Positions 1,386 through 63,711 of a stretch of DNA of 64,000 nucleotides are shown in pieces. The stretch comes from Pseudobacteriovorax antillogorgiicola. GTDB taxonomy: Bacteria; Bdellovibrionota_B; Oligoflexia; Oligoflexales; Oligoflexaceae. The notes beneath the pieces were generated by a model. The model saw only the letters and a program-made list of their open reading frames with translations, had not been told where the DNA came from and made no database searches. The position numbers and the translations under genes are program-made. The stretch is taken from assembly GCF_900177345.1 (NCBI RefSeq), contig NZ_FWZT01000003.1, forward strand, positions 62,001 through 126,000, read 5' to 3'. Within the stretch, counting starts at the first letter, position 1, and every line of letters starts with the position of its first letter.

Positions 1386-2132
1386 TTAGTCACGGCTTTG
1401 CAACTTAGACAAGAGTCTCAGGATTTCTAGATATAACCAGATGAGAGTGACAAGCAAGCCAAATGCACCGAACCACTCCATGTATTTTGGAGCACCGCTT
1501 TCGGCACCTGCTTCAATAAAATCGAAGTCCATGACAAGATTCAATGCTGCAATGACCACAACGAATAAACTGAAACCGATTCCTATGGCTCCTGACTCAT
1601 GGATATAAGGGACTGTAACACCAAAAAACCCTAAAATAATCTGCAGCAAGTAAAACAAGGCGATACCACCAGTAGCAGCTGTAATTCCCAACTTGAAATT
1701 TTCCGTCGCCTTGATCAAACCAGATTTATAAGCCATCAGAAGGGCAATAAACACCATCATCGTGAGCCCTACCGCCTGAACGACAATTCCAGGGAACCTA
1801 AGCTCAAACATTGCTGAAATACCACCAAGAAATAGCCCTTCAAGACCCGCATAGAGAGGCACTGTATATGGCGACCACTGCTTCTTGAATATGGTAACCA
1901 GGGCAACGATAAACCCTCCAATCGAACCTCCCCAGATATAGCCCATAGGAGGGACTGGTTCCGCCTGACCGAAAAAACGCTCCCAGACAAACATGGCGGC
2001 AATCAGCAGAATCATTCCAGATATGAAGCACTTATTAACAGTTCCATTCAGAGTCATGACATCTGTGCTTCTCTGGGAGTAGGGAACTGAAAACGTGTCT
2101 TGTTTTAATGCCGGATTTCCCGATCTCATCAT
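1386..2132 (-). CDS. Bax inhibitor-1/YccA-family membrane protein
   Basis: 248 aa. The protein opens with the SGNPALKQDTF signature found at the N-terminus of one bacterial Bax inhibitor-1/YccA subfamily and continues with seven hydrophobic segments from about residue 35 to 240. Acidic residues in the last helices (MDFDFIEAG; WLYLEILRLL) correspond to the conserved BI-1 polar positions. In bacteria these inner-membrane proteins are linked to Ca2+/H+ leak or FtsH interaction; the exact role here is not predictable. GGAAGG lies upstream of the tandem ATGATG start. Confidence 0.85.
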   Translation of the reverse strand: MMRSGNPALKQDTFSVPYSQRSTDVMTLNGTVNKCFISGMILLIAAMFVWERFFGQAEPVPPMGYIWGGSIGGFIVALVTIFKKQWSPYTVPLYAGLEGLFLGGISAMFELRFPGIVVQAVGLTMMVFIALLMAYKSGLIKATENFKLGITAATGGIALFYLLQIILGFFGVTVPYIHESGAIGIGFSLFVVVIAALNLVMDFDFIEAGAESGAPKYMEWFGAFGLLVTLIWLYLEILRLLSKLQSRD

Positions 2133-2646
2133 TGTTGAAAACCTTCCTTACCTTCGAGGTGGGTACTTATAACCATTTCAATGCTCTATCTTAGCTCTGC
2201 TATCGGAACATCGCAATGGAATCGTAAGTAAAAGGCCGATGACTTTAGGGGACTGTGAAGGGTTGGCTAGCTATGCAAAGTATAAAAATGAACCTACCAC
2301 CATCATAAATGTGACTACAATGGATAGGTCCGTATGTTTCGCTAAAAATTTCAGTAGATATTTTGTCTGTTTCATTCATTCCCCCTTACACCTACGAGAC
2401 GAATCAAGGCCGACAATATTGCAAGTCCTACCTACTCCAGGCTTTGAATTAGAACGATCACTAACATGTATATTGTTGCTGAATAGAAGCACTTTAACTC
2501 CACTTATCAGGCTGTTAGCACGCCCATAAGACTGATTTTTAGGCAAATCCCAGATTTCGCAACTAATGCTCTTGTTTAGCCCTACCCCTAAGTGGTAGGA
2601 TAAGCATGCCATTTAGGCGTAAAAAGAATCAAAATATGGAATCATT
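2133..2646. other. Intergenic region, nothing recognised
   Basis: 514 bases between the divergent YccA-type gene and the CAP-domain gene. Short open frames occur on both strands (for example 2239-2529 plus, 2376-2612 minus) but they lack ribosome-binding sites and protein-like composition. No hairpin or repeat was recognised; it presumably carries the two divergent promoters. Confidence 0.5.
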
Positions 2647-3186
2647 ATGAAACCTTATCTTACACTTACCCTTCTTAGCCTGATCGTCGCATGCGGTTCA
2701 AATAACGGTCCTAGCAACGATGAGGCTCCTGATGGGACGGCTCCTCAGGCAGACCTCGTAGAGAGCAAAAACTGCGAGTCAGTCACATGCCAGGCAGAGG
2801 CAGAAGTTTTACGCGCTCTGAACCAGAAACGAACTGAGCTAGGGCTTGCCCCACTCTCTTGGTCAGAAGAACTTAGTTACGGTGCACGGGTATGGTCCGA
2901 CCAGCAGGCGTCTGCTAGCCAAATCTCCCATGATGGTTTTCCAGAGCGAAGGCTTCACTCCATTCAATCAATGTACCCAGATTTTGAAGAGTTCCTTTCC
3001 GCTGAAAACGTTGCTATGACCTACTCCTCCTCTGCAGAGGGACTAGCCATTGGTCAGCAGTTTTTCCAAATGTGGTGGAATAGCAAGGGCCATCAGCAAA
3101 ATATGCTTGGCAACCATAGTTCTATCGGGGTGGGCATCGTCGCCAAAGGTAATGGGTACTACGGCACCCAACTTTTCTTTTACTAA
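2647..3186 (+). CDS. CAP/SCP-domain lipoprotein (YkwD-like)
   Basis: 179 aa. A type II signal peptide ends in a lipobox (LIVAC, Cys16), so it should be a lipid-anchored envelope protein. From about residue 52 the CAP (cysteine-rich secretory/SCP-like) domain is clear: LNQKRTELGLAPLSW, the ISHDGF His motif, the SAENVA segment and WWNSKGHQQNMLG, ending in YYGTQLFFY. The two His and Glu positions of the CAP cavity are retained. Bacterial CAP proteins are extracellular; their substrates are mostly unknown. It ends 92 bases before the kinase gene and might be co-transcribed with it. Confidence 0.85.
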   Translation: MKPYLTLTLLSLIVACGSNNGPSNDEAPDGTAPQADLVESKNCESVTCQAEAEVLRALNQKRTELGLAPLSWSEELSYGARVWSDQQASASQISHDGFPERRLHSIQSMYPDFEEFLSAENVAMTYSSSAEGLAIGQQFFQMWWNSKGHQQNMLGNHSSIGVGIVAKGNGYYGTQLFFY

Positions 3187-3262
3187 GGCAGGTCTGAGTG
3201 ATTGTTATAACTCCCTCCCCCAAGACCCTTTACTCTTTGTGATCCTTTCCGATAATTCCCTC

Positions 3263-3269
3263 AGGAGGT
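3263..3269 (+). promoter_or_regulatory. Ribosome-binding site that supports a TTG start
   Basis: AGGAGGT lies nine bases before the TTG at 3279. This near-perfect Shine-Dalgarno sequence argues for TTG as the start of the following kinase gene rather than the in-frame ATG at 3300. Confidence 0.7.
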
Positions 3270-3278
3270 CACAAAGAA

Positions 3279-6152
3279 TTGCCACCAATATACCGGGTAA
3301 TGCTATCGATTTTAGCGATTAGCTACCTGTTCCGAACGAACTGGGCCGTGGCCCAAAGCCACAATGTTGTCAAAGGAGTCGCTGACCTAAGGTCTTCGGA
3401 TTTTTCCGACGGCAAGGTGATTCCATTATCCGGGCAGTGGGAGTTCTATTGGCAGCAATTGGTACCCGGAGTGGCCGTTGATGACCTTTCAGATATAGAT
3501 TCTAAGGATTTTATTGAGGTTCCGGGAAGTTGGGGGCGATCTGATCAACGGAGCACCTATGGCTATGGTACCTATCGAATCCGGGTAGATCTTGACAAGA
3601 TTCAAACTCTAGCGATTCGTTGGCCCACAATTTACTCATCAGCTAGGATCTTCATCGACGATCTTAAAATTCTAGATATTGGCAAAGTTGCAGACAAACC
3701 TGACCAACACATAATGCAATTGTCAGAACGAGCGATTAGCTTTCAACCCGAGAATCCCTCATTTTACTTAACGATACAAGTAACTAACTATGATATGTTC
3801 CTTGCTGGCTTAGCCAAGGCGACCATCGAAATCGGTTCACCCGAAGTCATATTTGCTAAGAATGAGAAGATAACCGCGTCGACTATGTTCCTAATCGGCT
3901 GCCTTTTTATGATGGGGATCTATCATTTTTGCTTGTTTGCACTTCGTCGTAAATCAAAATCTGCCGCTTACTTTGGAGCAAGCTGTCTTTTAATCGCTGC
4001 TTACACCTTGGTCGCAAGGGGTCGGCCCATAATCGTGTTTCTTCCCCACATTACGTCCAAAGAGCAAATTTTTCTGTTCAATCTATGGCTTCTCTCAATT
4101 CCCTCATTTCTATATTTTACCAACGAAATTATCCCTCGGTCCATCCCGAGACGATTTATACAATCAGTCGCCTGGTTTAAAGGGGTCTATCTCGCTTCTA
4201 TATTTGTTCTTGAGACTAAGGTCTTCTTAAACTTGTCCGTCATCGCTCAGGTTGTAGCCCTCATTAGTATGATATTTATATTTAAAGCATCCATCAAAGG
4301 CGTGTTTCAGAGAATCGAAGGGGCTCGGCTATTTCTTATGGGACTCCTTGTGTTACTAATTTCTACAGTGAACGACATGGCATTAGCGAGAGCCCTGATC
4401 CAGTCTATCCCTCTTGGAGCTACCGGCCTCTTCGCCTTCATCTTTTGCCAATCATTTTTATTGGCAAAAAGATTTTCAAATGCTTTTACAAGGGTTAGCC
4501 GCTCGGAGCGCAAGATTCGTCAGCTTTCTGGCGACCTCAAGAGTGAGCGTGACCATGTGATACAGCTCAATGAAACCTTAGAGCAACGTGTCGAAGAGCA
4601 AACGAGGGATATCCGCTCATTCATGACCAACCTTGAAATGGGAATATTTGCCATTCAAGGAGACAGTTTGGAGATTCATGGCGATATCTCAGATCACATG
4701 AAAGTCCTATTTGATGCTGAAAGCTTCGAAGGCGTGAATATTTGTAGCCTGCTTTTTGAACAGAGTCACCTTGATTCCAATGAACAGAATCTGGCTAAAA
4801 ATGTTCTCGTAGCAGCAATGGGAGAAGATCTCTTGGCTTTTGAAACCAATAGCCACGGCCTACCTTATGAAGTAGAGCGCCAAAACAAAAACGGTGAATC
4901 TCAGATTTTAGAACTCTCTTGGAACCCCATTGTCAACGACGACGATATTGTCAACAAGATCCTAGTTACAGTACGAGACGTAACCCTTATACGATCCTTA
5001 GAAGAAGAAGCCCTAACTAAAGAAGAAGACCTTCAGTTCATAGGCGAGCTATTGAACATAGATCCTGCAAAATTCAGGCGTTTTATAGATGACTGTTATG
5101 AGTTTGTCAGCGAAAATAGAAAGCTTATTAACTCAAAAAGTATACAAGAAAAAGATATGGAAGCCCTCAAGGTTCTATTTATCAATATGCATACTATGAA
5201 AGGAGCCGCAAGATCTCTGTACCTCAAAAAGATGACACAGGTATTCCATGAAACTGAACAATACTATGCAACCTTGCAAACAGATGCAAACATTGAATGG
5301 AGCATCGATAAGATGAACTCCGACCTTGACGAGGTCGTCGATATCATTCGGTCATACGAGAACTTGAGTAAGAATAAGCTAGGAAGGGATTTCGATGGTG
5401 AGCCACACATCGAATTTAGCGAGTCTGAAGTAGAAAAGATGCTTCACCTTATGACTCGATTCGAAAACGAAGAACCTATCAGCCTAGGCAATGATCACCT
5501 CTCCTTGCACAAGACGATATTTGAGCGGCTATATCTTAGACGCCAGCAAGTGATCGCAGAATCGTGCCAAGTTCTTCCCGCTCTGGCTAAGGACTTAGGC
5601 AAAAACAATCCGCGACTGATGATAGAAGACAATGAAATTTACATGAACTCCGTTGGTGAAGATATTCTTCGCAAGGTATTCGTCCATATTCTCAGAAATT
5701 CTATGGACCATGGCATTGAACCTCCTGATGTCAGGAGTGCCATTGGTAAAGATCCCGTCGGCAACATTTCCATAAGGATGACTTGGGAAACCTCAAAAGT
5801 CACCATCAGCTATCGCGACGATGGAGCTGGCCTTGACTTACAAAAGATTTCTAAAATGGCCATCCATCGAGGTGTCCTGAGCGAAGACAATGCAGGAACA
5901 CCATACCAAGTAGCACAGTGTATTTTCAACGCTGGATTCTCAACCGCCAAGCAAGTGAACGATATTTCAGGTCGGGGAGTGGGCATGGGTGCCATTAAGA
6001 AGTTCATCGAAGATGCTGAAGGCACCATCGAGATCAGTCTCGACCAACCTATCGCCGGGAGACAAAATCGCTCTTTCGCCTTTCTCATTGAACTTCCTCA
6101 GAATCTCTTCGCCCGTTATAAAGATTTCAAAGGCCAGCAAAACGTCGCATAG
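3279..6152 (+). CDS. 7TMR-DISM sensor with PAS, Hpt and CheA-like ATPase domains
   Basis: 957 aa starting at TTG. Order of parts: signal peptide (1-26); periplasmic 7TMR-DISM extracellular domain (about 35-190, with SGQWEFYW and the jelly-roll YRIRVDL stretch); seven-helix 7TMR-DISM membrane unit (about 200-400); coiled coil (405-445); PAS-like domain (445-570); Hpt domain (about 590-700) with phospho-acceptor His638 in MHTMKGAARS; and a CheA-type HATPase with N box HILRNSMDHGIE, DDGAGLD and GRGVGMGAI. There is no CheW domain and no receiver, so it is CheA-like but not a classical chemotaxis kinase. It should sense a periplasmic ligand and pass phosphate from the Hpt His to a separate regulator. 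Its C-terminal half is paralogous to the kinase at 33922-36615. Confidence 0.88.
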   Translation: MPPIYRVMLSILAISYLFRTNWAVAQSHNVVKGVADLRSSDFSDGKVIPLSGQWEFYWQQLVPGVAVDDLSDIDSKDFIEVPGSWGRSDQRSTYGYGTYRIRVDLDKIQTLAIRWPTIYSSARIFIDDLKILDIGKVADKPDQHIMQLSERAISFQPENPSFYLTIQVTNYDMFLAGLAKATIEIGSPEVIFAKNEKITASTMFLIGCLFMMGIYHFCLFALRRKSKSAAYFGASCLLIAAYTLVARGRPIIVFLPHITSKEQIFLFNLWLLSIPSFLYFTNEIIPRSIPRRFIQSVAWFKGVYLASIFVLETKVFLNLSVIAQVVALISMIFIFKASIKGVFQRIEGARLFLMGLLVLLISTVNDMALARALIQSIPLGATGLFAFIFCQSFLLAKRFSNAFTRVSRSERKIRQLSGDLKSERDHVIQLNETLEQRVEEQTRDIRSFMTNLEMGIFAIQGDSLEIHGDISDHMKVLFDAESFEGVNICSLLFEQSHLDSNEQNLAKNVLVAAMGEDLLAFETNSHGLPYEVERQNKNGESQILELSWNPIVNDDDIVNKILVTVRDVTLIRSLEEEALTKEEDLQFIGELLNIDPAKFRRFIDDCYEFVSENRKLINSKSIQEKDMEALKVLFINMHTMKGAARSLYLKKMTQVFHETEQYYATLQTDANIEWSIDKMNSDLDEVVDIIRSYENLSKNKLGRDFDGEPHIEFSESEVEKMLHLMTRFENEEPISLGNDHLSLHKTIFERLYLRRQQVIAESCQVLPALAKDLGKNNPRLMIEDNEIYMNSVGEDILRKVFVHILRNSMDHGIEPPDVRSAIGKDPVGNISIRMTWETSKVTISYRDDGAGLDLQKISKMAIHRGVLSEDNAGTPYQVAQCIFNAGFSTAKQVNDISGRGVGMGAIKKFIEDAEGTIEISLDQPIAGRQNRSFAFLIELPQNLFARYKDFKGQQNVA

Positions 6153-6191
6153 CCTTGTTTAAGCTGTCTTCAATGAATTGCAGTGCCTCGA

Positions 6192-6638
6192 TCACGAGGC
6201 CAAAGAATAGACTATCAGACCCACAAAAATCAGCAAAAACCCTATCATCAGAGGCGTTTCGTAGCGATCTAATATTTTCTCTAATCTAGAGCCAAACACC
6301 CGAACAAGGGCAGCAAGCCCAAAGTAACGAATCCCTCTAGAGATCGCAATCACAGCAATAAAGCCGTCAAGCCTCATGCCGATCAGTCCAGCTGATAAAG
6401 TCCCCAACTGGAACGGAACAGGAGTCACTCCAACGAGAAAAAGAGACCAGTAGCATTGGTCCTCTAAATCGGCTTTTATCCCCTCAAATTCTTTCAACAG
6501 CTCAAAGTATTTAAGGATAGGCTCTAGAATAGGCTCGAACATCGAATAGGCAAGTCCATAAGCAGCAATTCCACCTAGAACAGATCCAAGAGTCAGCATT
6601 CCAGCCATCAGCCATACTTCTCGATGACGGCGAGCCAT
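6192..6638 (-). CDS. YqaA-type VTT/DedA-family membrane protein, N-terminus in another frame
   Basis: The visible 148 residues match the YqaA branch of the VTT/SNARE-associated (DedA-like) family: MLTLGSVLGGIAAYGLAY, then GVTPVPFQLGTLSAGLIGM and ISRGIRYFGLA. These small inner-membrane proteins belong to a superfamily that includes lipid scramblases and flippases. The usual first 25 or so residues are missing from this frame but are encoded just upstream in the next frame (see 6639-6718), so the gene as given appears frameshifted at a run of four A (6648-6651). The ATG at 6638 lacks a ribosome-binding site, which supports the frameshift reading over a true short protein. Confidence 0.75.
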   Translation of the reverse strand: MARRHREVWLMAGMLTLGSVLGGIAAYGLAYSMFEPILEPILKYFELLKEFEGIKADLEDQCYWSLFLVGVTPVPFQLGTLSAGLIGMRLDGFIAVIAISRGIRYFGLAALVRVFGSRLEKILDRYETPLMIGFLLIFVGLIVYSLAS

Positions 6639-6718
6639 GATAGGTATAAAAGTGGCTCAATAGCTATAAAAAGTACTGTATTCTCAAGAAACGAAAGGAC
6701 CACCAACCAAAATGGCAT
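6639..6718 (-). pseudogene. Upstream, out-of-frame N-terminal part of the YqaA-type gene
   Basis: Read on the minus strand from the ATG at 6718, this piece encodes MPFWLVVLSFLENTVLFIAI followed by EPLLYLSW, the typical N-terminus of YqaA-like proteins (FLENT...EPL). One extra T in the TTTT run (A run at 6648-6651 on the plus strand) would read EPLFIPIMARRHREVW and join it in frame to the 6192-6638 product. As given, the frame stops near 6610. This may be an assembly error, a real inactivating mutation or a slippage site. Confidence 0.6.
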
Positions 6719-7129
6719 CCAGCGGGAGCGAACCGCTCGATAGATCGAGTGTTTAATCGTATCCTTGTTGTGTCAAGCCGCCTGCCTGATCAGCCATCAT
6801 GATCCCCTGAGTTGAAGCACAATTGGAAAACCAACAGTAGTTCGCTAGGCTAAAAAAGACAAATCCCAAAACAAAGTCTTTTTTATTGTATCTATGATAG
6901 CTTGATGACCTTTTCATTTGAGGCGTGTACCAAAGTCGAAGAGATAATGAAGCTAGGGAGTAGTAAGCTCCCCTCAAGGTATTCAGGTTGGATTCATGTC
7001 AAAGCTACTCTAGCAGTTGCACTGACAAACAGACATTTGACCCGGAACAGTCGTCCACCAACCTCCTGTGGATTGACCACCTACAAGGACTGCCCTCGCC
7101 CCTACCCTTGTCTGGAAATCTTTAAGATG
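6719..7129. other. Intergenic region with one doubtful small frame
   Basis: 411 bases between two minus-strand genes. A minus-strand frame (6753-6917 from an internal ATG) would encode a short peptide with a hydrophobic stretch followed by a Cys in FSNCAS, loosely like a lipobox, but no ribosome-binding site precedes it. I do not call a gene. Confidence 0.35.
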
Positions 7130-33921: not shown

Positions 33922-36615
33922 TTAAACAGAGTTGATAACATGAAGCTTACCTTTATTGTAAGGTTCTCTCAGAATAAAGTCGAATCTGAATGCTATGGAT
34001 CGAAACCCTGCTGTAGCTTCTCCAAGCTCAATGGTGATAGTTCCTCCATGGCTTTCTACCAAATGTTTCACAGCATCCAGGCCCACACCGCGCCCTGATA
34101 CTTCAGTTACAGTAGGCTTTGTCGACAGTCCCGAATTAAAAATCGAGTGAGCTAGGTCCCAATCGCTAAATGAGCGATGATCAATTCCATCCTTTGACAA
34201 AGATGCTCTCAGTGCTTGGATATCCAAGCCACGGCCATCATCTTGATAGTGAATCTGCAACCGTTGACCATCATGTAATCCTAGATCAACTTGAATCAAG
34301 CCTTGAGGATCCTTGCGCTTCATGAGTCGCTCTTCAGGTGCCTCAATACCGTGGTCAATACTGTTATGAATGAGATGGACGAATACACTTCGTACAGCAT
34401 CAAATTGATCCCGATCCATAAATATATCAATCTTGGTATACTCAACGATGGGAGTTCGCTTATTTAACTCACTTGCGGTTTCACAAATCCCCCCCTGGAT
34501 CGACTCAAAAAGATAGTCAAGTCCTAACTGACCATCAAGAATACGCTTAAATTTATTGTGAAAGGGAAATAAGCTCTGAGCTGGCCGACCTGAATCTATT
34601 TCTTGGTCGATCTCATCTAGCATTGCCATCAACTGAGGAATTTTCGAATCCTGCCCCAGTTTTTGGAGCTTCTGATCGTAAATATCACGATAGATTCCAA
34701 TGCAATCTTCTAATTCGTTTAGCCCATGGCGAAGTGTGGAACGATCCCACTTCATTTTGGGGTCTTGACGCAGCATGCTATAAACTTTCTCTGCATTATG
34801 TATCGCTTCAGCCATCTGCTTAAAGCCCAATGCGCGGGAGTTACCCTTTAGGGTATGAAGGGTTCTAAAAATACTGTTGATCACTTCAGGGTTCCGCTGA
34901 CCGTTCAAGTCTATGGCTTCACGAACTTCACCGATGGCACGATCCATACTATACATGAACTCCGAATACCGTTCGGAACCAACAGTCACAATTTCTGTAA
35001 TCACCGCGAACTGCCGAGACTGGTTTTTCGCTAGTTCTTCTAATTTTCGCACCTCAGTTACATCTTTTACCGACAAAATGATGCGCTCAACGGTACCATC
35101 CTGATCAATAATTGGATTCCATTCCAATTCAAGGATCTTTTCCCGGCCCGACGGGGAGAAATAATGCATAGAACTCACAAAAGCTTCATAATTCACGTGA
35201 AAGTTCATTTCATGCTCTCCGATCGCCACTCTTAAGGCCGAGTCCATGCGAGCCTTAATGTCATTTGATAAATCGGACGACGAGAATAGAACATCCATAA
35301 GTTGGCCATTGGCAATCTGATCAGATTCCAAGATCTGTTCCATTTGCTTCGAATACTCTTGATGTATTAGCTGCCCCGGAGTGATCGTTAAGATCCCCAT
35401 ATTGATGTTTTCAAGCATGGCCTGAATATCATCCTTCTTGCGCCTTAGTTCTTGAGTTCGCTGGTTAACTATAGCCTCCAAGTTTCGATTCTGCTGTTCC
35501 AAGAGAACGTTCACATGGAGATTTTCGAGTCTAATTGCAGCCGTACGGGCTAAGTTTTCGAGGACACTAACCAAATAGGGCACTAAGTCGTATTCCTTGG
35601 GTACAACTGCCACAATCACGCCGAACCATGATTGATCTTCCTTTACAATGGGAATGTAGACACCTAATCCACTTTCCAGTCTATGGGCCTTAATCTGTCT
35701 GGTGCGCAGCGATGCCCTTAGGTATTCGGCGCCCTTGTCCCGCATAAATTCTTTTGACACCATTCGATCAGAGAGTTGGCTTCCTTCCACAAGGCCGTCG
35801 TCTTGCCCTTTGCGATAATAACAAACTTTTTCAGTGCCCAGCTTCTGGCCGCAGAACTGCACCAGCAGCTCTTCTATGTTATGAGACTCGTAGAGCTGAT
35901 TCAGTTTTTGGCTGAGATCGTTGATCTCGATCAAATCACTGATCTTCAGCTGGATCGCATCCCGCATGGCCATAAAATTCTTTGCCAGGTTTCCGACCTC
36001 ATTGTTTTCCTGAATGACGAAGTTATGATCAAGTTCACCATCAGCGAGCTTACGAGCACCGTCGCCAAGATTACTAAGCGGCTCTTCAACAATTCGTCTA
36101 AGGAAAATGCGAACTAATATTGATAGGATCATGATACAGAGACCCCCGAGCATCAAGATAATCACCGCGGTCTCTAGAGCCTCTTTTTGGACTCTTTTGA
36201 TGGAGAATATGACAAAAACACGACCAATTTCCTCCCCTTCACGAGTCACGATTGCTTCAGAGCAAAAATTATCGTTTGAATCGCAGAACCGTGTCTTTGT
36301 TTGGGTATCGCTCAAAGACTCATCTGAGCGATAGATCCAATCGATTTGAGGATCGGTGATTTCCATGTAAAGGATGTCAGGATCGCGAGTAAATTCGTCA
36401 CCATACTCGACAATGGTATTTTCACTGTAGTTCCAGATTGGCGAGCTCAGAGCTTTGGTCGTCATCCGCATGCTTTGATGTGCACGTTGCTTCAAATTTT
36501 CCAAGGCATCATTGAATTGCTTGATCCCAACTGCCGAACTGAGAAGTAGGGTTCCGATTGCAATGGTGCTGATAATCTTGCGGCTAACTTGAACAGCAAT
36601 GCTTTTGAACTTCAA
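33922..36615 (-). CDS. Membrane sensor kinase: HAMP, GAF-like, PAS, Hpt and CheA-like ATPase
   Basis: 897 aa. Transmembrane helices at about 12-32 and 150-172 bracket a periplasmic domain with MTTKALSSPIWNYSE near its start. A HAMP domain (about 173-225) follows, then a GAF-like region (about 235-370), a coiled coil, PAS (about 395-535), Hpt (about 555-660, His in TLHTLKGNSRALGF) and a CheA-type HATPase (HLIHNSIDHGIE, YQDDGRGLD, SGRGVGLDAV). No CheW domain or receiver. The C-terminal half is clearly paralogous to the kinase at 3279-6152 (WNPI...D.TV..I+..V+DVT in both PAS domains). A binding-protein gene follows on the same transcript. Confidence 0.88.
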   Translation of the reverse strand: MKFKSIAVQVSRKIISTIAIGTLLLSSAVGIKQFNDALENLKQRAHQSMRMTTKALSSPIWNYSENTIVEYGDEFTRDPDILYMEITDPQIDWIYRSDESLSDTQTKTRFCDSNDNFCSEAIVTREGEEIGRVFVIFSIKRVQKEALETAVIILMLGGLCIMILSILVRIFLRRIVEEPLSNLGDGARKLADGELDHNFVIQENNEVGNLAKNFMAMRDAIQLKISDLIEINDLSQKLNQLYESHNIEELLVQFCGQKLGTEKVCYYRKGQDDGLVEGSQLSDRMVSKEFMRDKGAEYLRASLRTRQIKAHRLESGLGVYIPIVKEDQSWFGVIVAVVPKEYDLVPYLVSVLENLARTAAIRLENLHVNVLLEQQNRNLEAIVNQRTQELRRKKDDIQAMLENINMGILTITPGQLIHQEYSKQMEQILESDQIANGQLMDVLFSSSDLSNDIKARMDSALRVAIGEHEMNFHVNYEAFVSSMHYFSPSGREKILELEWNPIIDQDGTVERIILSVKDVTEVRKLEELAKNQSRQFAVITEIVTVGSERYSEFMYSMDRAIGEVREAIDLNGQRNPEVINSIFRTLHTLKGNSRALGFKQMAEAIHNAEKVYSMLRQDPKMKWDRSTLRHGLNELEDCIGIYRDIYDQKLQKLGQDSKIPQLMAMLDEIDQEIDSGRPAQSLFPFHNKFKRILDGQLGLDYLFESIQGGICETASELNKRTPIVEYTKIDIFMDRDQFDAVRSVFVHLIHNSIDHGIEAPEERLMKRKDPQGLIQVDLGLHDGQRLQIHYQDDGRGLDIQALRASLSKDGIDHRSFSDWDLAHSIFNSGLSTKPTVTEVSGRGVGLDAVKHLVESHGGTITIELGEATAGFRSIAFRFDFILREPYNKGKLHVINSV

Positions 36616-55412: not shown

Positions 55413-57464
55413 TCAGGCAGCTGCCTTTGAGGAGCTAATCTGATTCATAAGGTCGTCCTCGATCACATTGAAGAGCTTGGCGTGAACGGATGACAAATCT
55501 TCTAAGTGACCGGACTTCCATGAGTTCCAAGTCGCCAGATCCACTGTTTGAGTACCAAAATGTGCTAGCTTGGCGAGCATCTCGTCGATGGTTTCCGAAA
55601 GAGGCACAATGAGCTGTGAAACTGGAAGCTCTGGGCAGGCTTTTCGAGCCTCAGCCAGAATATGATTCAGGTAATCTTGGTCCTGAAAACTCTCCTCCAA
55701 TCTTGCAATTGGCACCTGGCTCATTTCACCTGCTTTTTGATGACTTTCGAACTCGGACTGGTTGCCACGCATATCATCATCATCAAATAGAAAGTTATTA
55801 AGTCCTTGATGAAGGTAAAACCGATCAATTGCCAAAACCGCACCATAGTCCTTCGAATATGCCACTGATCCTAAGTAAGGTATCTTTCTTTGTAACTCCT
55901 CCATCGGGAAGAAAAACAGATCAAAGGTTCCCAGCAGCTCATCAACTCCGATTGCAACAGGGGTTCCACCGAGGTCCAACGCGAGATAGCACTGTTTCTC
56001 AAACATCGCTGTGGAATGATCGATGTCTTTCAAATGAAGTAAGGTATAGATATCACCGTTATCCGTTTCTAAAGCGCCCATATCAACGCGACTGCGATCG
56101 GGGTAGTAGCAATCGACGATACACGCCTTCGACAGGCTATAGACTTGCTGACCATAGCGGAATAATACCGCTTCCTCTTCAAAGAAGGCAATGGGGATAT
56201 TGATCTCAAATCGAGTATATTGGTCGACTTCTGAGTCAAAGTACACGCTACCACCGGCGTTTTCCACCTGCGATCGCACCACATCCATACCGACTCCGCG
56301 CCCGGAAAGATCTGTGACGGTGTCATTCGATGAAAATCCTGGATGAAAAATTAAAGCCTGTCGCTCATAAAAATTCAGCTGTTCTAATTCGGTTTGGCTG
56401 ATGACCCCTTTCTCAACCGCCCGAGCTGCAATCTGATTGCCATGCAAACCCTTACCGTCTTCTTCAAAAGTGACCACGATCCTGCCACTTCGTTGCTCAA
56501 CTGCGATACGAACCGCACCTGTTTCTGGTTTGCCCTTCTCAAGCCGATCTTCTGGCATTTCGATACCGTGATCAATGGCATTGCGACAGAGGTGAGTCAT
56601 GCAATCCGAGAGGATTTGAAACCAAGTGATATCAATGTTAACTTCGCTCATACCAGATACTTTGGTACACACCTTCTTCCGCAATCGGTTGGCTAGATCA
56701 ACGAGAAGGCTTTCTGATTTGGTCGCAAGCGGCGCTAGGCTAACCTGCCGGCTGGATTGGAGAGTGACAATGGATTGTTCAAGGAGCTGCAAAACCTGGT
56801 GCCGGTGGCCCGACCGCCTATCAGTTAGGGTAAAAAGAGCCTGACAAAGGTTGCTAGTCAAGCTATCCAAATCCTGTTCTCGGATGCCATAGGTGTGCTG
56901 CTTGCGATTGCCTTGATCTCTTTTATTCGAACTTAAGTCCGCCTTCTCAACGAAATCCAATAAACCGCGATAGTTGGTCCGATTTTTGGGCTTTCCTTTC
57001 GGAGAGTAGGCCTGATGCTCTTTATCATAAAGCCTCAGAAAAGCTTGATGATAGAAGGCCAAAGCCCGGAGTTGGGATTGAAAGGCTTCAGCTTTTAAAA
57101 TATCGGGACCCATCACTTCAACCAGTGTTCGAAGACAGTTCAAAAATGGGACAAGAGTTTGATAGGTTCCAGAGTTAAATTCCTGCTTTTGATCACGAAT
57201 GGCACAGAAGATGTCTTCGATGGAATGAATGAACTTTGATGTCTTCTTGAGCTTGAATTGAGCTGTTGTCCCTTTTAAGGTGTGTAGGATTCTCATAGCC
57301 AGATTGAGATCCTCTGTCGATGGATAATGGTCCTTTTCAAAGAACATCATTTGGAGGTCTTTAATTAAGTCGTAGACTTCTGACTGAAAGTTCTGAAGCA
57401 TCTCCTCATACTGCTCACCTAAAAACTCACGATGTAACTCTAGTTCTTGCAAGTCCTTTATCAT
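55413..57464 (-). CDS. CheA-type kinase (Hpt, dimerisation, HATPase, CheW)
   Basis: 683 aa from the ATG at 57464 (a TTG at 57488 would add eight residues). P1 Hpt domain with His61 in RILHTLKGTTAQF; an unassigned middle (about 110-230); dimerisation and HATPase domains (about 230-430: HLCRNAIDHGIE, FEEDGKGLHG, LSGRGVGMDVV); then a CheW-like P5 domain (about 435-575: AVLFRYGQQVYSLSKACIVD, PVAIGVDELLG). The last 100 residues are extra and unassigned. A classical P2 domain is not obvious. It is transcribed with the response-regulator gene six codons or so upstream and is divergent from the PYP chromophore ligase gene, which makes it a candidate for light signalling. No methyl-accepting receptor gene is in the window. 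Confidence 0.88.
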   Translation of the reverse strand: MIKDLQELELHREFLGEQYEEMLQNFQSEVYDLIKDLQMMFFEKDHYPSTEDLNLAMRILHTLKGTTAQFKLKKTSKFIHSIEDIFCAIRDQKQEFNSGTYQTLVPFLNCLRTLVEVMGPDILKAEAFQSQLRALAFYHQAFLRLYDKEHQAYSPKGKPKNRTNYRGLLDFVEKADLSSNKRDQGNRKQHTYGIREQDLDSLTSNLCQALFTLTDRRSGHRHQVLQLLEQSIVTLQSSRQVSLAPLATKSESLLVDLANRLRKKVCTKVSGMSEVNIDITWFQILSDCMTHLCRNAIDHGIEMPEDRLEKGKPETGAVRIAVEQRSGRIVVTFEEDGKGLHGNQIAARAVEKGVISQTELEQLNFYERQALIFHPGFSSNDTVTDLSGRGVGMDVVRSQVENAGGSVYFDSEVDQYTRFEINIPIAFFEEEAVLFRYGQQVYSLSKACIVDCYYPDRSRVDMGALETDNGDIYTLLHLKDIDHSTAMFEKQCYLALDLGGTPVAIGVDELLGTFDLFFFPMEELQRKIPYLGSVAYSKDYGAVLAIDRFYLHQGLNNFLFDDDDMRGNQSEFESHQKAGEMSQVPIARLEESFQDQDYLNHILAEARKACPELPVSQLIVPLSETIDEMLAKLAHFGTQTVDLATWNSWKSGHLEDLSSVHAKLFNVIEDDLMNQISSSKAAA

Positions 57465-57494
57465 TATCAGCCTAAACTCCCCACCCAAAAGGAT

Positions 57495-58241
57495 CTAAAA
57501 AATGCCGAAACCCGCTAATTTCTTGCCGTGATTGCCATCACTATCATCGTCTTCATCGGCATCAGTAAGGGGGTCACCTAAAACGCGAAGCTGCTCATCG
57601 AACGTGATTTCCATCGCTGAATTCAAGCCAACGGCTAAGCGCTTTTGAAGGCTCAACAATTTGTCGCGATCCAGGCTTTGATTTGACTCTAGATGCAAGA
57701 GGACTAGCTCCGTTTGACCTTTCAGAAACGTGAGGACATTGACAAGCTTATATAGAAATTCTGATTCACCCTGATCTTCAGTGCTATTCATTCCGGCTAG
57801 CCTAGCAGCAATATTGGTGAGAGCTACGTGGGTATCAGAAAAATCACCTTCCAGCACCTTCACAGTTTCTGTAAGATTCCGCGAGAACTTTAGAGCCTGC
57901 TTCATCTTCGAAACAACATCTTCAGTTTGAAATGGCTTTTCTAAAAAATCATAGGCTCCTTGACGAATCGCTTCAATGGTGTGTTCCTTCTCTGCGAACG
58001 CTGTGAGAAATACGAAGGGTTTCTGATAGCCTAGACGCCGTGCTGCCTGGAGAAATTCAACACCACCCATATGCGGCATCTTAATATCAGATATAACAAG
58101 CTCCACTTTATCGAGGTGAGCTTGGAGGCTCGCCAGCGCAGCCTTCCCGTTGTCTGCTTCAATAGCCTGTTCCTCTATCTCCGAAACTAATAGGTTCAGG
58201 ATTTGCCTGATACCAGCTTCGTCGTCCACCAGTAAAATCAT
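57495..58241 (-). CDS. Response regulator with helical C-terminal domain
   Basis: 248 aa. A complete receiver (1-120): ILLVDDEAGIRQIL, Asp52 in LVISDIKMPHMGG, Thr in FVFLTAFAEKE, Lys in EKPFQTEDV. The rest (125-248) is helical and may form an Hpt-binding or phosphatase-like bundle; it carries a very acidic tail (DADEDDDSD). No DNA-binding motif. It is followed by the CheA gene after 30 bases, so the two form a signalling pair. The pcl-like gene starts 112 bases away on the other strand. Confidence 0.88.
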   Translation of the reverse strand: MILLVDDEAGIRQILNLLVSEIEEQAIEADNGKAALASLQAHLDKVELVISDIKMPHMGGVEFLQAARRLGYQKPFVFLTAFAEKEHTIEAIRQGAYDFLEKPFQTEDVVSKMKQALKFSRNLTETVKVLEGDFSDTHVALTNIAARLAGMNSTEDQGESEFLYKLVNVLTFLKGQTELVLLHLESNQSLDRDKLLSLQKRLAVGLNSAMEITFDEQLRVLGDPLTDADEDDDSDGNHGKKLAGFGIF

Positions 58242-58352: not shown

Positions 58353-59711
58353 ATGAATCGACAATTCATAGAAAACTTTCGATCACGACTGAAAGAGCGA
58401 TCAGAACCGACAATCCAATGGATTGCAGGTGGCGAAGAGAATGTGCTCAGTGCGAGTGCCTTGTGGAATGTAAGCCTGAGGCGAAGACACGACTGGCGAA
58501 GTCAAGGTGTTCCTGCTGGAGCTCTCATTGCCTGCACAGGAAGTAGCCATGAGAGAATTATTGACTTTTTTGCAGCCCTCAATGGCGGCTTCGCTCTTGC
58601 TTTCACCGAAAATCTTGATCCTGAGGGGCTAGCCAGTCTTCACCGTCTTTCAAAGCGGCAGATCTGGATAAATTCTAACGGTCAGCTCCAAGGGACAACG
58701 CACTCAGAAGTATCCTTAGACTCCGCCAGTATTGAAAGAATCTGGCTTCAAACTAGTGGTACCAGTGGTACCAAGAAGTGGGTTGGTTACAACGATCACG
58801 GCATTCTTCATCAGCTTCAGAGTCACGAGGGATTCTTCAGCGAACAACGGGGTGCCCTGAGGCTATCTTTGCTGCCAAACACCCATGCATTCGGATTGAT
58901 TCTTGATCAGTTACTTGGGCTATGGATCGGTCAGTCGCTATTCCTTCTTGCTCATAAAAGCCTTGGAATTCGAAATCTATATCAGTTCATGAGCATCGGC
59001 CAAGAATTTGTTTCAGCTATGGTTCCCAGGCAACTTGAAATTTTTTTGCATTCTTTAGAGGCTCAGCAGCAACGTTTTGATATCACTATTCACACGGGAG
59101 GAGCGCCCCTTCGTGAGTCCTTGCTAGCAAAGGCCAGTGAGCTGGGCGTTCGCATCATTGAAGGTTACGGCCTAACTGAATTAGGCCCAGGAGTGACGAT
59201 GCTGGGGGAGCCCGTAGGCTGCAAAGTTCGCGTTGATTCCACTGATAGGGGGGACATTGGCGAGATCTTAGTATGCAGCCCATCTCTTGGAACTATGGAC
59301 CCCAGTCAACAACGATTTAAAGAAGGATATCTTGCCACTGGAGACCTTGGAAAATGGCTGACTAATGGCAAACTGAAAGTAGTTGGTCGCAAAGGCAACT
59401 TGATCAAGAATAGCCATGGGAAGTGGATAACTTTAGCCAGCCTGGAAGAAAGAATCATAACTAGGTTCAAGCTCAGAGAGTGTGCAATATTTCGTAAATC
59501 CAATGGGTGTTTTCAAGCATCTGTCCTTAAAAAAGATCCTAATGATATCATGAAGGTAAATATGCTCCGCAAACATCTGGAGCAATCGCTCAGCAGCCAG
59601 GTGAGCATTCATATCCACCAAAGCCTAGATGAGCTTTTCGTGGAGTCACAGCTTAAAAAAGCAAAGTCCATTCGCGACGCTCTACAAGCTTGGGTTATGA
59701 AGGAGTTCTAA
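58353..59711 (+). CDS. pcl: p-Coumarate-CoA ligase-like enzyme (AMP-dependent synthetase)
   Basis: 452 aa, GAGG seven bases before the ATG. The adenylate-forming motifs are present in order: P-loop QTSGTSGTKKW (about 130), IHTGGAPLRESLL, EGYGLTELGPG (about 270), ATGDLGKW and GRKGNLIKNSHGKWI. The family activates carboxylic acids as acyl-AMP and then acyl-CoA. At about 450 aa it is shorter than plant 4CL (about 540). In PYP-containing bacteria, a ligase of this family charges p-coumarate for attachment to the PYP cysteine. The nearby pyp and tal genes make this the likely role; without them it would only be called an acyl-CoA synthetase. Confidence 0.85.
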   Translation: MNRQFIENFRSRLKERSEPTIQWIAGGEENVLSASALWNVSLRRRHDWRSQGVPAGALIACTGSSHERIIDFFAALNGGFALAFTENLDPEGLASLHRLSKRQIWINSNGQLQGTTHSEVSLDSASIERIWLQTSGTSGTKKWVGYNDHGILHQLQSHEGFFSEQRGALRLSLLPNTHAFGLILDQLLGLWIGQSLFLLAHKSLGIRNLYQFMSIGQEFVSAMVPRQLEIFLHSLEAQQQRFDITIHTGGAPLRESLLAKASELGVRIIEGYGLTELGPGVTMLGEPVGCKVRVDSTDRGDIGEILVCSPSLGTMDPSQQRFKEGYLATGDLGKWLTNGKLKVVGRKGNLIKNSHGKWITLASLEERIITRFKLRECAIFRKSNGCFQASVLKKDPNDIMKVNMLRKHLEQSLSSQVSIHIHQSLDELFVESQLKKAKSIRDALQAWVMKEF

Positions 59712-59775: not shown

Positions 59776-60246
59776 ATGGATGTTTCAGATCTCAAGAAAA
59801 GCATTCGTAACTTTCAAAAGCTCGAAGGCCCGAAGATTACGGCTGACAAGGTGCGTACCCTCTTTGATTCAAACGACTTCAAGACGACTTATGCCGAACT
59901 GATGACCGAAGTTCCCAAAGAGCTTCATCGCGATCTGATGGAGTTTGCCGCGGAAGGTATTGATAAGATCACCAATTCTGTAGAGAATGTGGATGACACT
60001 GATGAAATACAGTACATGATTGCGATCAACTATATGTTACTGAAATGCGAATGGACTCTAATGAACTGTCAATTAAACTATAAAATCATGGCGACGGGTG
60101 AAGATCCGGATCAAATTGATATGTTTAAGGCCTCAATCATTACAGCTCTCCTCGCTCAGGTTGAGCCCTATCTTAACGACCAGGCAACTCAGGAAATTAC
60201 CACCATATTGAATTCACGAATCCGTGAGATGGTGGAAGCGGCTTAA
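59776..60246 (+). CDS. Unknown 156-aa helical protein in the PYP island
   Basis: A soluble, mostly helical, acidic protein; AGAGG precedes the ATG. Predicted helices at about 4-15, 22-45 (ITADKVRTLFDSNDFKTTYA), 50-70, 78-105 (EIQYMIAINYMLLKCEWTLM) and 115-150. No signal peptide and no family recognised. It follows the ligase gene by 64 bases on the same strand and overlaps the tail of the convergent lyase gene by 33 bases. The location suggests a function in chromophore transfer or PYP signalling, but that is inference. Confidence 0.7.
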   Translation: MDVSDLKKSIRNFQKLEGPKITADKVRTLFDSNDFKTTYAELMTEVPKELHRDLMEFAAEGIDKITNSVENVDDTDEIQYMIAINYMLLKCEWTLMNCQLNYKIMATGEDPDQIDMFKASIITALLAQVEPYLNDQATQEITTILNSRIREMVEAA

Positions 60247-61617
60247 CAGGTCACCCTTCTCAGGGAGGTTCCAATTCTGCCATTGGATTAAACTCAATGC
60301 AGGAGGCACTGCTCGACCCGACTTCTGAACCCCTCCGCGCAGAGCTATAAAGCTAGCCCCACGGAAGACATCTCGCGCAAGAGCCATCAGTTCATCAAGG
60401 TGAACAAGCATGGTCATACCCGCCGGGACTAAATCCTGATTGTGACTTTCGCTAGAAAAACTCGCTTGAATCGACCTTGGAGTTTGGGTTCTAACTTTTT
60501 GATAAAGACTTGATAGAAGTTGGTGCAAGCCCTTTAGATGGTCGTGACCATTCCAAAGATTATCGGCGAGGCCTGTTTCGTTGCCATCCATCATTAAAAG
60601 GACCTGACGATCTAAAAGCTCACAGAGCTTGGCAACAATATCGATAGCTAAGTCAGAGCCTGTTGCCAAACCTGATGCATAGAATAGGCCTCCATGCCAA
60701 GGGCTATCACCATCATGGGGTATGATCGGGTTGTCCGCTACCGCTAGTGCTTCCGAAACCGCTTTACACTTTGCAAATTCCAAAAGATCGTAGCAATTAC
60801 CAAGAATTTGAGGGCTACATCGGATGGAATACTTGCTTTGAACCTTTGTTTGCTTGGACTCAATCAGTAGCGTTTCTCGCCAATTCTGAAGTGCCTGGGC
60901 GAGCTGAGAAGCGGCAAAGCAATTCCCCTTTAGGTGAGAGTTAATTTCGAACCCAAGGCCTTGAAAGTGTTCCTCGGGGCTGTCTAGGACGAGAGCATTG
61001 ATGGCTGTAATCTCGGCAGCACGAAACCAGAGCTGCTCGACAATTTGTAGCTGGAGCACCAACCAAGACGCCATCATAGCATTTGTATTGACTAGGCCAA
61101 TAACATCTCTAGGCCCGCGAATTTCATGGGAAAATAGCGGTACCAAAGCGTGAGCCATCGGAATGAGATCACCACTCGCACCCAGGCTGCCGTATCGTGG
61201 CACCAGGGGAAGGCTCTCCTCATTGCTTAATGCAAGCAAATCACTAATAGTTTCAGGGTGAATGCCGGATACTCCACGAGATGCTTTAAAAGCTTGAAGC
61301 CTAAGACCAAGTCGAACAACGGGAACCGGTAAAGGCGAACCAACACCAACTTGCAGGTAATGAAGAAGATCACGTTGCCAGAACTCAAACTCTCCCGCGT
61401 TCCTCGCATCTTTCACATTGTGGCCATAACTCGTGTGCAAGCCATAACAGGGTTTATCAGTCTGACCTGCAATCCTGACTAATGTCTCGTAACTTGCCAA
61501 ACAATGAGATAAGCGTTCCTTGCTTATATTGCACGGGAGATCACGTGAAAAATGGCTGATAGATTCAATACAAACATCAGCTTGGCCAAGATCATCAATG
61601 TCGAGATAAGCACTCAT
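60214..61617 (-). CDS. tal: Aromatic amino acid ammonia-lyase (tyrosine ammonia-lyase candidate)
   Basis: 467 aa, shorter than the 500-520 aa usual for the family. The MIO prosthetic group would form from Ala147-Ser148-Gly149 in YGSLGASGDLIPMAHA. The catalytic Tyr59 lies in CYGLHTSYG. NTNAMMASW and SVAD-type Asn/Gln motifs follow (VADNPIIPHDGD; DNLWNGHDHLKG). At the substrate-selectivity pair, which is Ser-His in histidine lyases, Phe-Leu in phenylalanine lyases and His-Leu in Rhodobacter tyrosine lyase, this protein has Tyr87-Leu88. That speaks against histidine as substrate. With pyp and pcl adjacent, production of p-coumarate from tyrosine is the likely job. Divergent from pyp by 157 bases. 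Confidence 0.85.
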   Translation of the reverse strand: MSAYLDIDDLGQADVCIESISHFSRDLPCNISKERLSHCLASYETLVRIAGQTDKPCYGLHTSYGHNVKDARNAGEFEFWQRDLLHYLQVGVGSPLPVPVVRLGLRLQAFKASRGVSGIHPETISDLLALSNEESLPLVPRYGSLGASGDLIPMAHALVPLFSHEIRGPRDVIGLVNTNAMMASWLVLQLQIVEQLWFRAAEITAINALVLDSPEEHFQGLGFEINSHLKGNCFAASQLAQALQNWRETLLIESKQTKVQSKYSIRCSPQILGNCYDLLEFAKCKAVSEALAVADNPIIPHDGDSPWHGGLFYASGLATGSDLAIDIVAKLCELLDRQVLLMMDGNETGLADNLWNGHDHLKGLHQLLSSLYQKVRTQTPRSIQASFSSESHNQDLVPAGMTMLVHLDELMALARDVFRGASFIALRGGVQKSGRAVPPALSLIQWQNWNLPEKGDLLSRFHHLTDS

Positions 61618-61774: not shown

Positions 61775-62395
61775 ATGAGTTCAACCCTTTCGAAACTACA
61801 GCAGGTTGTTTCCAACGAGGCGCCGCAAGGCAATACTGCCCCTGCTCCAGCCGGTGATGCTGATGACCTAGTCGCTAGCCTAGAAGAACAGCTCAATGAT
61901 TTTTACTCAGACCAGGCATTCGCAGCAGAGCACTTTCCAAATCAGTCCATGCGATCGGTTTTAGAGTGGGCTGTCAGTGCCAAGGAGAAGCTCGCTCAAG
62001 CAAAGGCAAGTGGAACTGTTGAAGACTTTTCCTTCGTACCAGGCAACGTGATGAGCAGTCTTCCACAGATGGATCAAGCCACAGCCGATGGCCTCGACTT
62101 TGGTCTTGTTGAAGTCGATGATCAGGGCGTTATCAAGATCTACAATCAATACGAATGCCAACTTGCTGGAATACAACCTGGCACAACTATCGGCAAGAAC
62201 TTTTTCACCGATGTCGCTCCCTGCACCAATAACAAACTTTTCTTGGGACGTTTTAAAAATGGTGTTCAAGCAAACAGCCTAGAAGTGGCATTCAACTACA
62301 CCTTCACCTATAAAATGAGACCGACTGCGGTCGCCATTGCCATGTACCGGGAGCCAGCTAGCAATCGTAACTTTGTGTTTGTTAAGAAGCGTTAG
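61775..62395 (+). CDS. pyp: Photoactive yellow protein with N-terminal extension
   Basis: 206 aa, AGGAT eight bases before the ATG. Residues 82-206 are a PYP PAS domain that aligns to Halorhodospira PYP with a constant offset of 81: Tyr123 (Y42), Glu127 (E46), Cys150 (C69, chromophore attachment, in KNFFTDVAPCT) and Met181 (M100) are all retained. Ala131 replaces Thr50 and Ile133 replaces Arg52, changes expected to alter absorption or cycle speed. The first 81 residues are extra: an Ala/Pro-rich stretch then a helical segment (DDLVASLEEQLNDFYSDQAF ... VLEWAVSAKEKLAQ). Most PYPs are about 125 aa. The chromophore is p-coumaric acid, provided by the neighbouring lyase and ligase. Ends before a hairpin. 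Confidence 0.93.
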   Translation: MSSTLSKLQQVVSNEAPQGNTAPAPAGDADDLVASLEEQLNDFYSDQAFAAEHFPNQSMRSVLEWAVSAKEKLAQAKASGTVEDFSFVPGNVMSSLPQMDQATADGLDFGLVEVDDQGVIKIYNQYECQLAGIQPGTTIGKNFFTDVAPCTNNKLFLGRFKNGVQANSLEVAFNYTFTYKMRPTAVAIAMYREPASNRNFVFVKKR

Positions 62396-62619: not shown

Positions 62620-63711
62620 ATGCTCACGAGAAGCATGCTAGGGTGCTTGCTGATTAGCATCACCTTAACATCCTGCGGAGTTAAGGCTCATCTCATAGGG
62701 GAACTAAATGAGTCTTCACGTCCCGCTACAAACGATGATGATAGCACTCCTGAAGCGACTGCCATCAACGAACCTATAAGTGTTGGAGGCGCCTTTCTCA
62801 GCTGTGGTGTTTCTCCTGATGAGGCGTACCAAAAGTATCTGAATGAATCTACAATTGCCGTGGTCGCCTGCCAAATCGCGGAAGACGATGGCCAGGCCAT
62901 GAGCCTTCCCGAAGGGATTAATATTGATTTTTCCACCTATAATCCCAATGGTGACCTTGTTATGGTTGAGCAGCTCGAACGAATCGAAGACCAGGGGAGC
63001 ATTTGGATCTTAGCAATGACAACCTTTAGCCGACCCTGGCTAATGCTAGCTAAGCTTGGTAATAACCAGGAGTTTGAAACAGAAATCGACATGGGTGACT
63101 ATACACCGCCGCAGCAGGCTATCAGCGAACTCGAAGCTGCAAATGCTGATGAGGCTCTGCGCCTTGGTCCAGAGCTACTGATGAACGGTAGCTTCTCAGA
63201 GCCACAGGTGATTAACCCTCAATTTACTGATGGATCGACTGGCTGGAGCCACTACGACCCTTCCGTTGTCATCGGCTGGCAGGCTGAGTGGAATAACTCG
63301 ACATGCAATAACCCAGTCCGAGTTGAAGTCCAAAGAAACAATATCGGCCAGCAGTGGCTAGATTTAGCAGGATCTTGTGCTGTGGGCACAACCCCACCTG
63401 CTGGTGGCTCAAACCTCAAGCTAACACAATCGATCGCAACAACAGCTGGAAGCAGTTATAGGCTCAGCTTTCGCTACTTGATGCGCAACTCTAATGCAAT
63501 CGACTTTCGCATCGAGGTAAACGACGAGGCTTTATTTGATTCCAACGTGAACCAAGTTACCCCCCGTTCGTGGCAGTCTGTCGAGTTAGATTTTGTGGCT
63601 CAGACCGATCAAACCACATTTTCTGTGATGGAAATTGGTAGGGACCCTTTATCAGGAACATTGTTTGATTCGATTTCAGTCAAGGAAATTAGCCGAAGAC
63701 TAATTCCATAA
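62620..63711 (+). CDS. Lipoprotein with DUF642/CBM-like beta-sandwich
   Basis: 363 aa. Lipobox LTSC. The N-terminal half (about 20-180) is unassigned, with two Cys (LSCGVS, VACQIA). From about residue 185 a carbohydrate-binding-like jelly roll appears: LLMNGSFSEPQ at its start, a GWSHYDPSVVIGWQAEW segment, LDLAGSCAVG, LKLTQSIATTAGSSYRLSFRY and a closing LFDSISVKEI, the pattern of DUF642 and CBM4/6-type modules. Probably a surface-exposed glycan-binding lipoprotein. Ends just before a hairpin. Confidence 0.75.
   Translation: MLTRSMLGCLLISITLTSCGVKAHLIGELNESSRPATNDDDSTPEATAINEPISVGGAFLSCGVSPDEAYQKYLNESTIAVVACQIAEDDGQAMSLPEGINIDFSTYNPNGDLVMVEQLERIEDQGSIWILAMTTFSRPWLMLAKLGNNQEFETEIDMGDYTPPQQAISELEAANADEALRLGPELLMNGSFSEPQVINPQFTDGSTGWSHYDPSVVIGWQAEWNNSTCNNPVRVEVQRNNIGQQWLDLAGSCAVGTTPPAGGSNLKLTQSIATTAGSSYRLSFRYLMRNSNAIDFRIEVNDEALFDSNVNQVTPRSWQSVELDFVAQTDQTTFSVMEIGRDPLSGTLFDSISVKEISRRLIP

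Follow-up and report, generated by a model that had tools for sequence, protein, structure and literature searches.

An N-terminally extended PYP of Pseudobacteriovorax antillogorgiicola carries a LEEQL helical unit and may be linked through p156 to CheA-type kinases

The photoactive yellow protein (PYP), a blue-light sensor, encoded in the 64,000-nucleotide stretch of Pseudobacteriovorax antillogorgiicola DNA analysed here (the window) appears to have swallowed its partner. That is, sequence comparison suggests that in Bdellovibrionota a LEEQL unit, lying in a helical hairpin, has been fused to the N-terminus of PYP; in other loci of the same PYP clade, such units are encoded by separate genes. 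A second protein, p156, accompanies this PYP clade and is found in close relatives as part of CheA-like kinases. We think it rather probable that a light signal runs from PYP via the LEEQL helix and p156 to a CheA-type kinase, and on to a response regulator. The features concerned are as follows.

55413–57488, minus strand: CheA-like histidine kinase with Hpt, HATPase and CheA-type P5 (Pfam Hpt, E 4e-8; HATPase, E 4e-13).
57495–58241, minus strand: response regulator, a receiver (PF00072, E 3e-23) and a C-terminal part of about 120 aa without a family match.
58353–59711, plus strand: AMP-binding CoA ligase, putative p-coumaroyl-CoA ligase (PF00501, E 2e-13), with homologues beside PYP in other loci.
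59776–60246, plus strand: p156, an undescribed all-helical domain protein, stand-alone in the window (no match in Pfam or NCBIfam; AlphaFold2 pLDDT 91.6).
60214–61617, minus strand: aromatic amino acid lyase, putative tyrosine ammonia-lyase (PF00221, E 6e-62), divergent from PYP.
61775–62395, plus strand: PYP with N-terminal extension, 206 aa (model and PDB matches, AlphaFold2, homologues).
61775–62017, plus strand: the N-terminal extension, residues 1–81 (AlphaFold2; conserved in Bdellovibrionota PYPs).
61871–61915, plus strand: LEEQL-LY unit (VASLEEQLNDFYSDQ), residues 33–47, resembling the repeats of separate PYP-adjacent proteins.
62027–62392, plus strand: PYP/PAS photosensor domain, residues 85–206, with Y123, E127, C150 and M181, and with A131 and I133 at positions 50 and 52.

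Membership of the PYP family has been defined by similarity to PYP together with Cys69 (PMC9664959). The window protein has both, the cysteine being C150, along with Y123 and E127. The TIGR02373 (photo_yellow) model matches residues 90–205 with E 7e-36 and 123 bits, which is below its curated cut-off of 143.05 bits; this model catches only about 20% of PYP homologues (PMC9664959). H. halophila PYP chains in the PDB match the ORF with E values from 1e-26 to 2e-27, and AlphaFold2 predicts a PAS core of the PYP type, with pLDDT mostly over 90. Alignment to the PDB chains bears out the constant offset of 81 to Halorhodospira PYP that the first-pass annotation had given, together with all of its residue equivalents: Tyr42 corresponds to Y123, Glu46 to E127, Cys69 to C150, Met100 to M181, Thr50 to A131 and Arg52 to I133. 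Assignment to PYP clade C (Xing et al. 2022), defined by loss of Phe92, Phe96 and Trp119, was considered and rejected: Phe92 and Phe96 are retained, and position 119 is Phe. Promoter and terminator scans gave results no better than shuffles.

Covalently bound p-coumaric acid and a photocycle in the window PYP are indirectly supported by the adjoining lyase and CoA ligase genes. The PF00221 match and a GASGD motif in the translation identify an aromatic lyase fold with the Ala-Ser-Gly triad, and the enzyme putatively acts on tyrosine rather than on histidine or phenylalanine. Elsewhere, the genome encodes another full-length member of this lyase family. The CoA ligase gene is followed by p156, on the strand opposite to that of the kinase and response regulator genes, which lie 6 bases apart (55413–58241).

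The same annotation had expected the replacements at positions 50 and 52 to alter colour and kinetics; that they make this PYP special is not borne out. Across 984 PYPs, the consensus residues are Ala50 and Leu52 (Dohmen et al. 2025, PMC12826048), and every one of the 22 PYPs in the window's clade pairs Ala50 with Val52, Ile52 or Phe52, so A131 and I133 are ordinary residues. Thr50/Arg52 is found in 23 classical PYPs (L030–L052). Since Ala50 is present in 22/22 clade PYPs, whether extended or short, it is H. halophila PYP that is the exception at these positions. For Ala50 PYPs, the absorption measured to date lies at 435–465 nm (Dohmen et al. 2025, PMC12826048). The colour of the window PYP may be shifted, in a direction that is not predictable from residues 50 and 52.

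In the AlphaFold2 model, the extension consists of a low-confidence leader (residues 1–26), within which an additional helix spans residues 3–14, followed by main helices at residues 27–53 and 59–78. Homologous extensions are present in Pseudobacteriovorax, Oligoflexus and other Bdellovibrionota MAGs. The extension contains one unit of a 'SLEEQLxxLY' helical repeat. ORFs with 'SLEEQLxxLYxE' repeats were found in all 14 short-PYP loci of the clade (L016–L029), usually adjoining PYP, and in none of the 23 classical PYP loci. A profile was trained on the repeats of the separate LEEQL proteins only, with no extended PYP in the training set and with L018, L020, L022 and L026 (4 of the 14 short-PYP loci) outside it. 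When searched against 3753 six-frame ORFs, the whole window included, the profile found the extended PYPs of L060 (E 1.4e-5), the window (2.9e-4) and L014 (0.0025), and then those of L012, L015 and L013. These ranked after the training set and other PYP-neighbour ORFs, and the first unrelated ORF (E 1.4) came below all of them. The degenerate units of L010 and L011 were not significant with the repeat profile (E about 7.6), and these extensions are grouped with the others by whole-extension alignment only. Profile–profile comparison of the extension with the LEEQL proteins gave a probability of 93% and E 4.5e-7; the units are coiled-coil-like, and therefore part of the similarity could stem from composition.

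The PYPs accompanied by p156 form a single clade in the tree (100/93), inside which the extended PYPs form a single subclade (100/94), consistent with a single fusion event in Bdellovibrionota. Locus L022 is, judged by its sequence, a separate second fusion of LEEQL repeats and PYP with the same order of parts: a PYP-like domain without the chromophore cysteine ends a 1266-residue open frame full of LEEQL repeats. The L022 region 1766–6817, from a Bacteroidota MAG, encodes three PYP-type domains, one of them, without the cysteine, on the very long LEEQL-repeat region. No stand-alone LEEQL protein in the window's genome matched alignment A5, in a search run without a positive control.

It had been proposed that the extension of about 81 residues is helical and may be the output or docking part of the protein. 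Its reality and helical nature are upheld by its translation, its conservation in homologues and the AlphaFold2 helices. The docking role fits the comparative evidence, in that the repeat of a neighbouring partner has been fused on; the contacts are what we infer. Alternatively, the extension might be an oligomerisation or solubility helix only, contacting no partner, with PYP signalling via its PAS surface as in H. halophila. The coiled-coil-like character of the extension and its low-confidence leader would suit such a helix, and classical PYPs work without any extension (PMC9664959). We nevertheless consider this explanation unlikely, as the extension has a conserved unit in common with separate PYP-neighbour genes, and the fused form carries an invariant FP....RS motif, seemingly beyond the needs of an oligomeriser. 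The preferred role for the LEEQL helix, that of partner contact, leads to the question of the partner, for which p156 is the candidate.

AlphaFold2 predicts p156 to be a confident helical bundle. Foldseek returned no match at E under 0.001, and the p156 sequence profile gave no convincing match in the PDB. The best VIA-align hit (Z 7.3) was rejected as a fold match, being within the range of common helical arrangements. The informative similarity is to kinases: p156 aligns to the last ~130 residues of a CheA-like kinase whose gene immediately precedes that of the extended PYP in L010–L015. That is, in these loci p156 is the C-terminal domain of the kinase.

The distribution of p156 follows that of the PYP clade. 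A profile search seeded with seven sequences found p156 in all clade loci except L009, L016 and L019, and a whole-genome search found it in the genomes of these three as well. Thus, p156 is present in 21/21 genomes of the window's PYP clade, 18 of which contributed loci to the profile, and in 0/23 classical-PYP genomes. Within the phylum, it was found in 5/5 PYP genomes and in 0/53 others. One of 250 Burkholderiales and one of 282 Myxococcota genomes have it, both of them carrying the window's PYP clade; it is absent from the other PYP genomes of these groups (4 in Burkholderiales and 28 in Myxococcota). Among the matches listed, none came from the 551 sampled genomes without PYP. What is independent of the profile is limited to the absences and to the finds in the L009, L016 and L019 genomes and on contig C13 of the window's genome (see below). 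Fisher tests on the co-occurrence give extreme values, which relatedness among the genomes inflates; nor are the counts independent events, since the PYP clade is a single lineage, passed on by descent and by transfer.

The window kinase has the parts expected of a CheA. Its residues 257–537 match CheA structures (E 2e-41), indicating a P4 ATPase and a P5 CheW-like core, and its Hpt (P1) domain has the phosphorylatable His in an LHTLKG motif. The Pfam CheW model finds no match in it. The kinase is homologous to CheA-p156 fusions and is itself without a p156 domain. Two further window ORFs, at 3243–6149 and 33925–36615, match a CheA core profile (E 2e-36 and 1e-29).

In the short-PYP loci, nine p156 proteins of ~480–580 residues have a remainder homologous to the P4–P5 core of CheA (hhalign 97%, E 2.8e-11), with degraded ATP-binding motifs; some of these p156-CheA core proteins have a CheW-like end (E 3e-8 and 1e-6). 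Separate CheA-like kinases are also encoded in L018, L019 and L026, and in several loci the only CheA-like part within 6 kb is the degenerate core. In L021, the genes for PYP, LEEQL, p156-CheA-like, TAL and pCL form a single row on one strand. In L012 and L013, the extended PYP is followed by CheY- and CheX-type genes.

Contig C13 of the window's genome encodes a CheA-p156 fusion of 682 residues with no PYP near. Given this fusion and the stand-alone p156 of the window, the genome holds both arrangements. Moreover, p156 is not always tied to a PYP locus, since C13, which is without PYP, carries the genome's one CheA-p156 fusion. At this place (L064:7471–10048; G000:C13), the fusion is preceded by a ~166-aa gene with homologues in front of CheA in L010–L015. 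Lipoprotein-like genes in a similar layout, compared by eye, are found at window 62620–63711, beside PYP, and at L064:10696–11745, beside the distant fusion; they may be paralogues.

Two other observations concern the surroundings of extended PYPs. A ~170-aa domain without a Pfam match follows extended PYP, as a separate gene in four MAGs (L012:6545–7063, L013:6555–7076, L014:6559–7074 and L015:6519–7031) and fused to the lyase N-terminus in two Oligoflexus MAGs (L010:6629–7200 and L011:6629–7200). In Pseudobacteriovorax DT_89 (the genome of L009), the PYP gene is split between L060:1222–1667, which encodes PYP residues 1–145 beside the lyase, and L055:1350–1851, which encodes residues 40–206 behind a zinc-ribbon transposase-like N-terminus. 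The pieces have 318 bp in common at 100% identity, and the split results either from an insertion accompanied by duplication or from faulty assembly of the MAG.

PYP might instead act on another output, such as gene regulation or c-di-GMP, with the CheA-like kinase serving another sensor and being merely nearby. The window kinase without p156, and the CheA-p156 fusion residing elsewhere in the genome where PYP is absent, would agree with this, and clade C PYPs have been linked to GGDEF proteins (PMC9664959). Against it, most clade loci pair PYP with CheA-like kinase genes or p156-CheA cores, and the scan of cluster genes brought up neither a GGDEF nor an EAL gene. A different output is, in our judgement, quite unlikely.

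The first-pass annotation had named a true start further inside the gene, with the first 80 codons untranslated, as the result that would undo the extension. The check was made, and the extension proved to be protein-coding. The ORF starts with ATG, with an AAGGA-type ribosome-binding sequence just 5′ of it, and in each intact homologue of the extended PYP a ribosome-binding-type sequence stands before an ATG in the equivalent position. Within the extension, codons differ mostly at the third position: the counts at positions 1/2/3 are 23/12/50 between the window and L060, and 12/14/47 between L013 and L015. An internal start fails because of the ribosome-binding-type sequence, the matching starts and the third-position bias in homologues; these, with the conserved protein sequence, make spurious read-through of an untranslated leader scarcely credible.

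Returning to the pathway from PYP to CheA, the fusion, co-occurrence, clustering and domain make-up described above are established at the level of sequence. We infer that the parts bind one another in the order LEEQL, p156, CheA, and that signalling would depend on light and run in the direction given here. The chromophore would be supplied by the window lyase and CoA ligase. By analogy with model PYP, light would isomerise p-coumaric acid on Cys150, and the PAS core would partly unfold. The change would pass through the LEEQL helices to p156, a stand-alone protein here and a fused domain of CheA-like kinases in close relatives. In turn, p156 would adjust the kinase at 55413–57488, whose activity would reach the response regulator at 57495–58241.

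The PYP of H. halophila and classical single-domain PYPs resemble the window PYP in their PAS photosensor, in the equivalents of Tyr42, Glu46, Cys69 and Met100, and in their neighbouring lyase and CoA ligase genes. The classical proteins have Thr50/Arg52, whereas the window PYP has Ala50/Ile52, the N-terminal LEEQL extension and a link to p156, which is absent from the classical-PYP genomes tested. Ppr of Rhodospirillum (Rhodocista) centenum is a PYP-phytochrome-histidine kinase whose kinase domain binds CheW (PMC2993699). As in our proposal, PYP feeds a histidine kinase, but Ppr is one polypeptide with a phytochrome and another kinase type, in contrast to the separate proteins, CheA-type kinase and p156 of the window. 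The MCP-PYP fusions of Methylomicrobium and Nitrincola (PMC12826048) likewise couple PYP to chemotaxis-type machinery. There, PYP sits on the chemoreceptor C-terminus, whereas the window PYP is linked with a CheA-like kinase and p156, and the cluster genes that were scanned include no receptor gene. With CheA/CheW/CheX systems, the window and its relatives share Hpt, HATPase and a CheW-like core, and in the relatives CheY and CheX genes. They differ in the addition of p156, fused or separate, and in a soluble photoreceptor gene that replaces the usual receptor.

Earlier work has already connected PYP with kinases and with chemoreceptors (PMC9664959, PMC12826048); the 2025 paper on PYP operons (PMC12826048) makes no mention of CheW. 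Outside supplementary tables, nothing beyond counts was found on Bdellovibrionota PYP. Neither p156 nor LEEQL proteins were found as PYP partners in the searchable literature, which leaves aside supplementary tables and most subscription literature.

PYP is among the most studied photoreceptors, yet the protein to which single-domain PYP passes its signal still awaits identification (PMC9664959, PMC5812497), an "important gap" according to PMC12826048. The evidence seems to us evenly balanced on a broader proposal, as follows. The p156 and LEEQL proteins may be two families, neither described before, that serve a single PYP clade; together they would form a photosensory adaptor linking PYP straight to CheA-type kinases, with no chemoreceptor in between, and the window PYP would be a version with the adaptor helix built in. 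With p156 occurring in every clade genome tested, missing from classical-PYP genomes and fused to CheA-type cores, a short list of testable proteins is at hand. In addition, the natural p156-CheA and LEEQL-PYP fusions could inform the design of light switches for kinases.
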